From a bacterium (GTDB taxonomy: Bacteria; UBA9089; JASEIO01): a DNA stretch of 20,658 nucleotides. Shown here in pieces: positions 1,342-4,010 of this stretch; the stretch's first letter is position 1, and each line of letters opens with the position of its first letter. The notes below the pieces were generated by a model. It ran no database searches. It was given only the letters and a program-made list of their open reading frames with translations, and was not told the DNA's origin. The position numbers were made by a program, and so were the translations under genes. The stretch lies in NCBI GenBank assembly GCA_030017475.1, contig JASEIO010000012.1:1-20658 (forward strand), in the 5' to 3' direction.

Positions 1342-2634
1342 TTGAGAAATATTTGTATTATTGGTACTGGACATGTGGGATTAATCACTGGAGTTTGTCT
1401 TGCCTCATTAGGAAATAAGGTAATCTGTGTTGATTCAGATAAGGAGAAGATTGAAAAGTTAAAGCGGGAAGTTATTCCTATTTATGAACCTAACTTAGAA
1501 GAGATGGTTAGAGAAAATATTAGAGAAGATAGAATCTCATTTACTACCTCAATACCAACTGGGGTTCGGGAATCAGAAATCATTTTCATTTCAGTAAGTA
1601 CTCCTTCTAAACCGAATGGAGAGACAGATCTTAGATACGTGGAAGCAGTTTCTACGGAAATAGCCCGCTCAATGGATTCCTATAAGGTGATTGTGGAAAA
1701 AAGCACGGTTCCAGTAAAGACAGGAGAAAGGATTAAGAAGACCATTGAGATTAATAATCCAAGAAATATCGAGTTTGATATTGTTTCAAATCCTGAGTTT
1801 TTGCGTGAAGGAGAGGCGATACACGATTTTATGCATCCAGATAGGATAGTTATTGGAGTTGAGCAAGAAAGGGCAAAAGATATTATGTTAGAATTGTATA
1901 GGCCATTAAATGTTCCCATAATTGTAACTGATATAAAAAGCGCTGAACTTATAAAGCATGCCTCTAACTCATTTTTGGCTCTAAAGATCTCTTACATTAA
2001 TGCTGTGTCACAGATATGTGAAAAGGTAGGAACAGATATTAAAGAAGTGGCTAAAGGAATGGGTTTGGATAAAAGGATAGGACACGACTTTTTAGAAGCA
2101 GGTGTAGGTTATGGAGGCTCCTGTTTCCCAAAGGATTTATCTGCGTTTATAAAGATCTCGCACGATCTTGGATATGACTTTGAACTGTTAAAGGCAGTTC
2201 AAAGGATAAATGCTATGCAGCGAAAAAAGGTAGTAGAAAAGGTAAAAGAACTACTATGGATTTTAAGTGGTAAAACAATAGGGATCTTAGGACTTTCATT
2301 TAAGCCAAATACTGACGATATGCGAGAGGCCCCATCTGTGACTATAATCAATTCTCTCCAAAAAGAAGGAGGAAGAATAAAGGCTTATGATCCAAAGGCT
2401 ATTCATGAAGCCAAAAAGATAATTAAGGATGTAGAATTTTCGCACAATCCATATGATTTAGCAAAAGGGTGCGATTGTCTAGTCATTCTAACAGAATGGG
2501 ATGAGTTTAAAAGGTTAGATTTAAAAAGGATTAAGGATTTATTGAATCAACCCAATATAATTGATGGAAGAAATATCTTTGAACCAAAGGAAATGAAAAA
2601 ACTTGGGTTTAATTACAAAGGGATAGGGAGATAG
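1342..2634 (+). CDS. UDP-glucose/GDP-mannose 6-dehydrogenase family protein
   Basis: NAD-dependent four-electron oxidation of a nucleotide sugar to its uronic acid (for example UDP-glucose to UDP-glucuronate), supplying surface polysaccharide. The 430 residues match the family length. The Rossmann motif is IIGTGHVGL (6-14), with an acidic VDSD at about 30-33 favouring NAD. STPSKPNGETDL (86-97), VEKSTVPVKTG (118-128) and NPEFLREGEA (150-159) follow. LIKHASNSFLA (203-213) contains the conserved Lys205 and Asn209. The catalytic cysteine is Cys261 in GVGYGGSCFPKD. The start is TTG: an in-frame TGA lies at 1336-1338 and no ATG or GTG is available, while GAGGG at 1331-1335 is a good ribosome site. 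The stop lies 1 nt from the 3' end of the opposing tRNA-Leu. Whether the substrate is UDP-glucose or another sugar nucleotide cannot be told from sequence. Confidence 0.95.
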   Translation: MRNICIIGTGHVGLITGVCLASLGNKVICVDSDKEKIEKLKREVIPIYEPNLEEMVRENIREDRISFTTSIPTGVRESEIIFISVSTPSKPNGETDLRYVEAVSTEIARSMDSYKVIVEKSTVPVKTGERIKKTIEINNPRNIEFDIVSNPEFLREGEAIHDFMHPDRIVIGVEQERAKDIMLELYRPLNVPIIVTDIKSAELIKHASNSFLALKISYINAVSQICEKVGTDIKEVAKGMGLDKRIGHDFLEAGVGYGGSCFPKDLSAFIKISHDLGYDFELLKAVQRINAMQRKKVVEKVKELLWILSGKTIGILGLSFKPNTDDMREAPSVTIINSLQKEGGRIKAYDPKAIHEAKKIIKDVEFSHNPYDLAKGCDCLVILTEWDEFKRLDLKRIKDLLNQPNIIDGRNIFEPKEMKKLGFNYKGIGR

Positions 2635-2635
2635 G

Positions 2636-2721
2636 TGCCGGAGGTCGGATTCGAACCGACATGGAGATAAATCTCCGCTGGATTTTGAGTCCAGTGCGTC
2701 TACCAATTTCACCACTCCGGC
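2636..2721 (-). tRNA. tRNA-Leu (anticodon CAA)
   Basis: Read on the - strand, the acceptor GCCGGAG pairs with CTCCGGC. The anticodon stem CTGGA/TCCAG encloses loop CTCAAAA, giving anticodon CAA (window 2685-2687), which reads UUG. A long variable arm GGAGA-TTTA-TCTCC marks a class II tRNA. The T arm is GTCGG-TTCGAAT-CCGAC. The discriminator is A. The next bases are CCT, so a complete CCA is not encoded. Length is 86 nt. A consensus promoter lies just upstream at 2749-2777. Confidence 0.96.
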
Positions 2722-2779: not shown

Positions 2780-2815
2780 AAAAAAAGGCTAAATGAGGAA
2801 TCCCCCATTTAGCCT
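2780..2815 (-). terminator. Intrinsic terminator of small RNA unit A
   Basis: On the - strand, AGGCTAAATG (2806-2815) pairs with CATTTAGCCT (2786-2795), a 10-bp stem with a 10-nt loop. It is followed by a run of T (2786 down to 2780 are all A on the + strand). Read on the + strand the hairpin is followed by GGTATG, not T, so it terminates leftward transcription only. Confidence 0.9.
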
Positions 2816-2884
2816 GGTATGAGGCATTGGTTAGGTCATAGAGACTGGGAGAGGAAACTATAACCTTAACCGCTTGCCTTTCAA
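2780..2884 (-). ncRNA. Predicted sigma-28-dependent small RNA, unit A
   Basis: A stand-alone transcription unit of about 105 nt is bounded by a sigma-28 promoter (2890-2917) and an intrinsic terminator (2780-2815). The start site is estimated from promoter spacing. The RNA can form a long hairpin. On the - strand GGTTATAG (2865-2858) pairs with CTATGACC (2841-2834), and beyond a single bulged A (2866) GGTTA (2871-2867) pairs with TAACC (2833-2829). The 16-nt loop is TTTCCTCTCCCAGTCT. No open reading frame is shared with unit B, and the loops differ in length by 2 nt, which argues against a coding role. The C-rich loop resembles those of small RNAs that pair with ribosome-binding sites; that function is inferred. 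Family unknown to me. Confidence 0.72.
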
Positions 2885-2889
2885 TATCT

Positions 2890-2917
2890 ATATCGGCAAA
2901 AAATCTAAAAAACTTTA
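2890..2917 (-). promoter_or_regulatory. Sigma-28 (FliA/SigD-type) promoter of small RNA unit A
   Basis: On the - strand TAAA (2914-2917), part of CTAAAG, is followed by 16 bp and then GCCGATAT (2890-2897). The flagellar sigma consensus is TAAA, about 15 bp (14-16 tolerated), then GCCGATAA or GCCGATAT. All 12 defined bases match the GCCGATAT form. The -35 box abuts the T-tract of unit B's terminator, so the two units are packed head to tail. Confidence 0.85.
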
Positions 2918-2918
2918 G

Positions 2919-2951
2919 AAAAAAAGCTAAACGGGCTAGCCCGTTTAGCTT
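2919..2951 (-). terminator. Intrinsic terminator of small RNA unit B (perfect palindrome)
   Basis: A perfect 28-bp palindrome spans 2924-2951 (half-site AAGCTAAACGGGCT). On the - strand it forms a very stable stem followed by T at 2925 down to 2919. On the + strand only TTAAGG follows, so efficient termination is expected leftward. The outer stem shares GCTAAA with the terminator of unit A. Confidence 0.92.
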
Positions 2952-3032
2952 AAGGTATAGAATAGTACATAAATTAAGGATTATAGAAACTGGGAGGGGA
3001 AAAACTATAACCCATTAATTTATGGCTTCATT
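2919..3032 (-). ncRNA. Predicted sigma-28-dependent small RNA, unit B
   Basis: A diverged tandem paralogue of unit A, about 114 nt, between the sigma-28 promoter at 3038-3065 and the terminator at 2919-2951. On the - strand CATAAATTAA (3024-3015), a bulged T (3014) and GGGTTATAG (3013-3005) pair with CTATAATCC (2986-2978) and TTAATTTATG (2977-2968). This gives 19 bp with one G-U pair and one bulge, in the same position as in unit A. The 18-nt loop is TTTTTCCCCTCCCAGTTT and shares CTCCCAGT with unit A. The stem bases differ from unit A while pairing is kept. A 13-codon frame starting ATGGGT exists here but has no counterpart in unit A. The RNA is antisense to any pfkB leader that starts upstream of about 3032. 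Confidence 0.72.
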
Positions 3033-3037
3033 TATAT

Positions 3038-3065
3038 ATATCGGCAAGGAGCGGAAAAAACTTTA
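3038..3065 (-). promoter_or_regulatory. Sigma-28 (FliA/SigD-type) promoter of small RNA unit B
   Basis: On the - strand TAAA (3062-3065), 16 bp, then GCCGATAT (3038-3045), identical in boxes and spacing to the promoter of unit A while the spacer sequence differs. The -35 box lies only 12 bp from the pfkB start codon on the other strand, so a polymerase bound here would probably interfere with transcription into pfkB. No convincing + strand sigma-70 promoter for pfkB was seen in this gap. Confidence 0.85.
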
Positions 3066-3077
3066 GAAGAATTTTTT

Positions 3078-4010
3078 ATGATCTACACTATAACCTTAAA
3101 TCCATCTTTAGATAAGACAGTTGTAGTTAAAAATTTAGTGTTTGAGGACGTAAACCGAGTAGAAAAAATCTATACTGATCCTGGAGGGAAAGGGATAAAT
3201 GTTTCCAGGGTAATTCATAAGTTTCGGGGTGATACTACCTCGTCTGGTCTCTTGGGGGGTTATACTGGAGAACATATAGAAAAGTTATTAATAAAAAAAG
3301 GAATAAATACAGATTTTGTTTATACTAAAGGAGAAACCAGGACAAATATTTTGATCTTTGATACTGGAAGACATACACAAGCGAAAATTAATGAACCCGG
3401 ACCTTTAATTTCAGCCAATGAGATAGATCTACTTTTACAAAAGATTTTATCCTTATCCCTTAAAGTGAGGATTCTTGTATTAGCAGGTTCTATACCTCCT
3501 GGAGTACCTTTGGATATCTATTGTAAAATAATCAAGATATGCCATCGAAAGAACATTTTGACTATCTTGGATGCGGATACCGAGGCGCTGAAGTTTGGGA
3601 TAAAGGCAAATCCATTTCTAATTAAACTAAACATCCATGAAATAGAGAGACTACTTGGAAAAAAACTATTTAGTAAAACGTCCTTAATTGAAGGAGCAAG
3701 GACTTTATCGAAAATGGGGATAAAGATAGTAGTTGTCTCTCAAGGAGAAAAAGGGGTTATTGTAGTTAAAGATAACCATATTTGGGAAAGTACACCTCCA
3801 AAGGTACAAGTTTCAAGTACTGTTGGAGCTGGAGAGTCTTTTTTAGCCGGGTTTTCTTTAATGTTATTGCAGAAAAAAGAGATGGAAGAGGTTATAAGAT
3901 TTGCTACGGCTTGTGGAACTGCAGCAGTCTTAACTCCAGGAACAAAGCTTTGTAGAAAGGAGGATGTAGAAAGTTTGTTAAATAAGGTTAGGGTTAAAAG
4001 GATTGACTAA
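3078..4010 (+). CDS. PfkB-family sugar-phosphate kinase, 1-phosphofructokinase/tagatose-6-phosphate kinase type
   Basis: ATP-dependent phosphorylation of a sugar phosphate such as fructose-1-phosphate or tagatose-6-phosphate. The 310 residues and the opening MIYTITLNPSLD fit the FruK/LacC branch. PfkB signature 1 is GGKGINVSRV (36-45). LAGSIPPG (135-142) and LNIHEIERL (184-192, usually PN-x-x-E) follow. Signature 2 reads STVGAGESFLAGF (247-259), where the catalytic base, normally Asp in GAGD, is Glu253. The start ATG at 3078 fits the family N-terminus; the ribosome site is weak (AGAAGA) and no upstream in-frame start exists. It leads an operon with purH (11-nt gap), nadC, coaX and a lipoprotein gene. 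No PTS gene is nearby, so a fructose role is not supported by context. Confidence 0.88.
   Translation: MIYTITLNPSLDKTVVVKNLVFEDVNRVEKIYTDPGGKGINVSRVIHKFRGDTTSSGLLGGYTGEHIEKLLIKKGINTDFVYTKGETRTNILIFDTGRHTQAKINEPGPLISANEIDLLLQKILSLSLKVRILVLAGSIPPGVPLDIYCKIIKICHRKNILTILDADTEALKFGIKANPFLIKLNIHEIERLLGKKLFSKTSLIEGARTLSKMGIKIVVVSQGEKGVIVVKDNHIWESTPPKVQVSSTVGAGESFLAGFSLMLLQKKEMEEVIRFATACGTAAVLTPGTKLCRKEDVESLLNKVRVKRID

Follow-up and report, generated by a model that had tools for sequence, protein, structure and literature searches.

Sibling predicted sigma-28-dependent small RNAs in Candidatus Desantisbacteria and their relatives in Spirochaetota

To our knowledge, it is seldom possible to follow trans-acting small RNAs (sRNAs) outside a single bacterial family. 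Those that depend on the flagellar sigma factor, sigma-28, are known in E. coli (PMC10578931) and in Campylobacter (PMC4626219, PMC11187230). The nearest in behavior to the RNAs described here are CjNC1 and CjNC4 (CJnc10/CJnc170, FlmR), which are known only in thermophilic Campylobacter and have sigma-54 genes as their predicted targets (PMC4626219, PMC11187230). The E. coli representatives UhpU, MotR, FliX, and FlgO are likewise sigma-28-dependent sRNAs that act by base pairing and connect flagella with further functions, but they are UTR-derived, bound by Hfq, and limited to some Enterobacteriaceae, and MotR and FliX pair within coding sequences; in all of these respects they are unlike the units discussed below (PMC10578931). 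We analyzed a stretch of 20,658 nucleotides (the window) from a genome of the phylum Candidatus Desantisbacteria, in which a preliminary description had claimed two diverged copies of a unit composed of a sigma-28 promoter, an sRNA, and a terminator.

The two units are present and lie head-to-tail (Table 1), between tRNA-Leu and a divergent gene that we take, from its sequence, to encode a PfkB-type kinase. Most of what had been claimed for them held up: both promoters read TAAA-N16-GCCGATAT in exact agreement with the consensus and are offset by 148 bp, both units end in an intrinsic terminator (three terminator-like sites in the region versus 0.5 in shuffles), the apical loops have CUCCCAGU in common, and the lengths given for the predicted transcripts stand. 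The shared long hairpin with a single bulge was an accurate picture of copy A, where one U is bulged, but not of copy B, which has interior loops besides the bulge. No shuffled sequence folded as well as either RNA (z-score of -7.15 for copy A). When the copies are aligned with each other, 105 of 153 columns are identical and the score is 41.5 versus a shuffle maximum of -7. Their loops contain one informative difference, CCCCUCCCAG in copy A and CCUCUCCCAG in copy B, the latter being a change of C to U relative to the family consensus.

Table 1. Features of the two predicted sRNA units and their flanks (window positions)
Feature	Positions	Strand	Basis or remark
Copy A promoter, sigma-28-type	3038-3065	-	Exact TAAAGTTT-N12-GCCGATAT; letters TAAAGTTTTTTCCGCTCCTTGCCGATAT
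sRNA A, predicted, ~114 nt	2919-3032	-	Start inferred from promoter, end from terminator
Copy A hairpin	2968-3024	-	Fold; single bulged U
Copy A loop, 18 nt, UUUUUCCCCUCCCAGUUU	2987-3004	-	Unpaired in fold; conserved core 2990-2999
Copy A intrinsic terminator	2924-2951	-	Stem of 12 bp, then U run
Copy B promoter, sigma-28-type	2890-2917	-	Exact TAAAGTTT-N12-GCCGATAT; letters TAAAGTTTTTTAGATTTTTTGCCGATAT
sRNA B, predicted, ~105-109 nt	2780-2884	-	Fold z-score -5.65
Copy B hairpin	2822-2879	-	Fold; covariance-model match
Copy B loop	2842-2857	-	Unpaired in centroid fold; core CCUCUCCCAG at 2845-2854, one base from family consensus
Copy B intrinsic terminator	2786-2815	-	Stem of 13 bp, then U run
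tRNA-Leu promoter, sigma-70-type	2777-2749	-	TTGACA-N17-TATAAT, 12/12; between sRNA pair and tRNA-Leu
Flanking tRNA-Leu	2634-2721	-	Both units point towards it
Flanking kinase gene, presumably PfkB-type	3078-4010	+	Divergent

A link of both units to sigma-28 is strongly indicated by their promoter sequences. The strict motif, TAAAGTTT-N10-14-GCCGATAT, occurs at five sites in the genome and at none in the reversed control, and a looser form gives 13 matches versus one, so the expectation that the same promoter would be used elsewhere in this genome was borne out. Downstream genes include a presumed fliS, recognized from its sequence, a DUF5610-domain gene, and other flagellar-type genes. The proposed check for fliA had a mixed outcome: flgM and flagellin are present, but no fliA was found at the family cut-off in the window assembly (98.5% complete, 111 contigs). 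Of the 19 genomes of the phylum, 16 have a FliA that reaches this cut-off. Given the presence of flgM and flagellin, we read the missing gene as more likely an assembly gap than a true absence. A search for Hfq (PF17209) that succeeded in five control genomes detected none in the same 19 genomes, and a published analysis detected Hfq in Leptospiraceae and none in Borrelia (PMC11607428). Downstream of three other sigma-28 promoters (L020, G000 C14:38462; L027, G000 C44:4769; L029, G000 C56:12402), a terminator-like hairpin follows within ~100 nt, and their G-rich leaders (GGGAGGG, GGAGGGGG, GGAAGGGG) are complementary to the sRNA loop; it is possible that they are attenuators or sponges. Separately, flagellin leaders of Desantisbacteria and spirochaetes (L124, L137, L140, L155-L183) contain GGA-loop hairpins that adjoin the ribosome-binding site and resemble CsrA sites.

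Conservation of the hairpin in relatives had been put forward as a check, and it extends across phyla. In an alignment of the hairpins of 14 spirochaetes and four Desantisbacteria, with a helix of 13 bp, 85.7% of helix cells are paired, 12 of the 13 helix pairs change on both sides, and covariation is 0.708 versus at most 0.195 in slid controls. Each arm pairs with its own partner at a mean of -19.1 kcal/mol and with the arms of other members at -8.1 kcal/mol. G-U cells number 28 and A-C cells three, an asymmetry that assigns the RNA to the minus strand. The loop UCCCCUCCCA is invariant in this cross-phylum alignment; since six or seven loop bases were in the search patterns, only the outer bases are independent evidence. 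A covariance model built from the 18 aligned sequences, with no promoter information, found untrained members in several phyla. Among them is copy B of the window (2830-2870, 22.9 bits, E of 0.01 in 367 kb); copy A, a training sequence, matches at 2974-3017 with 40.5 bits.

Within the phylum, the RNA is carried by eight of the 19 genomes, in four families (G000, G001, G003, G005, G006, G009, G011, and G015), with the same promoter-hairpin-terminator layout in all eight. Pairs are common, with a tandem pair in G001 as well and two copies each in G006 and G009. The neighboring genes differ between carriers, which makes the sRNA an independent gene, and anchoring a search for relatives on the neighboring kinase in genome contigs found none. 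One further match (G013 C256) was dropped because it lies inside an ORF and has no -35 element. As for the carriers themselves, G005, G009, G011, and G015 all have FliA together with the sRNA, and a PF00669 search found flagellin in none of the four. G011 (L263, C16) also has genes resembling FlhA, FlhF, FlhG, and FlgM, together with FliA. At L265 and L266 (G009 C326 and G011 C46), a sigma-28-like promoter is followed by a sigma-70-like promoter and then by a gene for a porin-like secreted protein.

Beyond the phylum, 84,980 species genomes were scanned for the strict promoter plus CCCTCCC, which returned 32 loci versus ~5 expected by a rough estimate. Many of the loci outside Desantisbacteria have an open-loop hairpin and a terminator, and these belong to Treponema, other Spirochaetota, one further bacterium (two copies), and one gammaproteobacterium. 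A looser pattern applied to 392 Spirochaetota genomes gave 41 matches versus ~19 in the control; 16 of the 30 inspected combine an open C-rich loop with a terminator and, with two carriers confirmed separately (L066 and L087), the total comes to at least 18 genomes. Spirochaete matches that lack an open loop mostly lack a terminator too and were taken as chance. The promoter-hairpin-terminator layout recurs on a gammaproteobacterial contig (L091), where the loop is extended, UCCCUCCUCCCUCCCUCAG. Loci in Gastranaerophilales (L062, L069, L070, L084, and L092) have a sigma-28-like promoter, CCTCCCTCCCC, and a terminator, with the C-rich stretch outside any hairpin loop; flagellin was found in none of the three that were tested (L069, L084, and L092). 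The earlier inference of a new RNA family agrees with Rfam, which at gathering score matched only tRNAs in the window and 16 related loci and otherwise gave weak sub-threshold matches. Promoter motif, structure, strand, covariation, cross-phylum membership, and the lack of detectable Hfq were all computed directly.

That these loci constitute one RNA family in at least two bacterial phyla, with carriers in one group besides Desantisbacteria and Spirochaetota, is well supported. The most serious competitor is convergence, in which unrelated sigma-28-dependent sRNAs would each have evolved a loop against strong Shine-Dalgarno sequences. The stem sequences are indeed unrelated between groups, the conservation of the loop is partly ascertained through the presence of CCTCCC in the survey patterns, and the C-rich stretch of the Gastranaerophilales is not in a hairpin loop. 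Against convergence, bases beyond the search pattern are also common to the groups, such as UAGUUCCCCUCCCAGUUU in Spirochaetota and Desantisbacteria, and a single covariance model picks up members of each that it was not trained on. We regard it as a credible minority reading.

The best mechanism on offer is that the loop probably pairs with the ribosome-binding sites of mRNAs, as judged from complementarity. The loop can base-pair with Shine-Dalgarno sequences of the GGGAGGGG type, whose general form is GGGAG(G/A)GG. Enrichment of GGGAGRGG in the genome is slight (121 sites versus 100 in the control), and of the 101 distinct sites examined among these 121, a handful are at convincing gene starts, including those of mraW, flagellin, and flgM. 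The loop of copy B can form 17 contiguous pairs with mraW, over the ribosome-binding site and the first bases of the start codon, at -30.7 kcal/mol, an energy reached by none of 1200 full shuffles and three of 600 core shuffles. It can form 11 contiguous pairs with the flgM ribosome-binding site, and at both sites the fit is exact where the loop departs from the consensus. A matching mraW ribosome-binding site was not found in relatives. The best partners of copy A are flagellin and L019, the latter a short, sigma-28-dependent gene outside any Pfam family; the strength of the flagellin pairing is within the shuffled-loop range, with 34 of 120 shuffled loops reaching it. Among 48 genes of G001, fliP has the best site; motA, fliP, and fliA rank 1, 4, and 5 of 207 in T. 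lecithinolyticum; and in G003, with 92 genes ranked, flagellins are at 2 and 7 and a FliD-like gene is at 8. These rankings cover sampled stretches and motif sites from samples enriched in flagellar loci, so the flagellar pattern is suggestive, and a caveat for all target matches is that C-rich loops generally pair with Shine-Dalgarno sequences.

Considering these observations together, we think it likely that the two units encode sibling Hfq-independent trans-acting sRNAs, transcribed by sigma-28, with a loop that covers the Shine-Dalgarno sequences of their targets. We infer transcription, sigma-28 dependence, targets, and the direction of regulation as follows. With sigma-28 promoters on the minus strand, both sRNAs would appear only after the flagellar sigma factor has been freed. 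Each would fold into the long hairpin, followed by the terminator, and the hairpin would expose a single-stranded C/U-rich loop of 16-18 nt. Without Hfq, this loop would pair with the ribosome-binding site of a target mRNA and block its translation. Copy A, which keeps the family loop, would most likely act on flagellin and the second, sigma-28-dependent gene, and the one-base change in the core of copy B would suit the ribosome-binding sites of flgM, which encodes the anti-sigma-28 factor, and of mraW in the cell-division and cell-wall cluster.

The RNAs might instead be real and sigma-28-dependent but have a C-rich loop whose partner is a protein or a second small RNA, such as one of the G-rich sigma-28 leaders, so that they act as a decoy or sponge partner. 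Three other sigma-28 promoters in this genome do lead into short G-rich leaders with terminator-like hairpins, and a protein partner could equally keep the loop invariant across phyla. We nevertheless consider this unlikely, as the loop of copy B fits the mraW and flgM sites exactly where it diverges and the predicted mRNA sites in other genomes sit on flagellar genes; for a CsrA decoy in particular, the RNA strand has no GGA motif. A role in cis, as leaders or attenuators of the downstream tRNA-Leu or as short peptide genes, would suit the direction of both units and is very improbable: each unit has its own terminator, tRNA-Leu has its own promoter, relatives adjoin unrelated genes, and loop lengths differ by non-multiples of three, so that no reading frame is kept. 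The missing fliA could be cited in favor of functionless AT-rich intergenic sequence that resembles a promoter and a hairpin by chance, a reading that is scarcely believable given the covariation, the fold z-scores, and the occurrence in many genomes with controls.

Returning to base-pairing sibling sRNAs, promoter class, architecture, and loop are all kept across phyla, and carriers include cultured treponemes, which makes the hypothesis directly testable. FliA, a mapped sigma-28 promoter, and CsrA sites on flagellin mRNAs are all present in T. denticola (PMC9481697), so the regulatory context that such an RNA would require exists in its genus. If the hypothesis is true, it would provide a widespread RNA component for the sigma-28/FlgM/CsrA flagellar circuit of bacteria that lack Hfq, and the two siblings would be a natural case of target switching through a single loop change. 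Rather doubtfully, we extend it to one sRNA family, either ancient or spread by horizontal transfer, in Desantisbacteria, Spirochaetota, and other flagellated bacteria, that would give the sigma-28 switch an added level of post-transcriptional control. One sibling would act on flagellin and the other, re-aimed by a single loop change, on FlgM and the cell-division cluster, and completion of the flagellum would then tune both the switch and cell division.

Comparison with described sRNAs yields partial matches. CsrA-sequestering RNAs of the CsrB type were rejected, as repeated GGA loop motifs are not found and the loop is CU-rich on the RNA strand, and Hfq-dependent sRNAs were rejected on the Hfq result for the phylum. 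PmaR of Agrobacterium tumefaciens, whose long stem exposes a C-rich loop for pairing with mRNAs, is a precedent for the C-rich spoon loop, and it affects cell-wall genes and motility; it mostly activates its targets, is described as not anti-Shine-Dalgarno, and has no sigma-28 link in the available part of the source (PMC6234868). Neisseria NgncR_162/163 are likewise sibling sRNAs in one genome, with a metabolism regulon and, in the available part of the source, no link to sigma-28 (PMC9973317). For flgM, the predicted target of copy B, a precedent is FlmE (CJnc230) of Campylobacter jejuni, which represses flgM but, unlike the units here, is RpoN-dependent and processed from flgE mRNA (PMC11187230). 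Like CjNC1 and CjNC4, the units are paralogous and presumably Hfq-independent, with sigma-28 promoters, varying genomic places, a conserved interaction region, and predicted pairing with flagellar 5' UTRs (PMC4626219, PMC11187230). In CjNC1 and CjNC4, however, ~44 nt are aligned and the interaction region is 5' of the terminator stem-loop (PMC4626219), whereas here a separate long hairpin carries the loop within 105-114 nt; the units are therefore not assigned to that family. Sigma-28-dependent sRNAs as a kind are thus already known, but a family of them conserved across phyla with a fixed anti-Shine-Dalgarno loop appears to be new.
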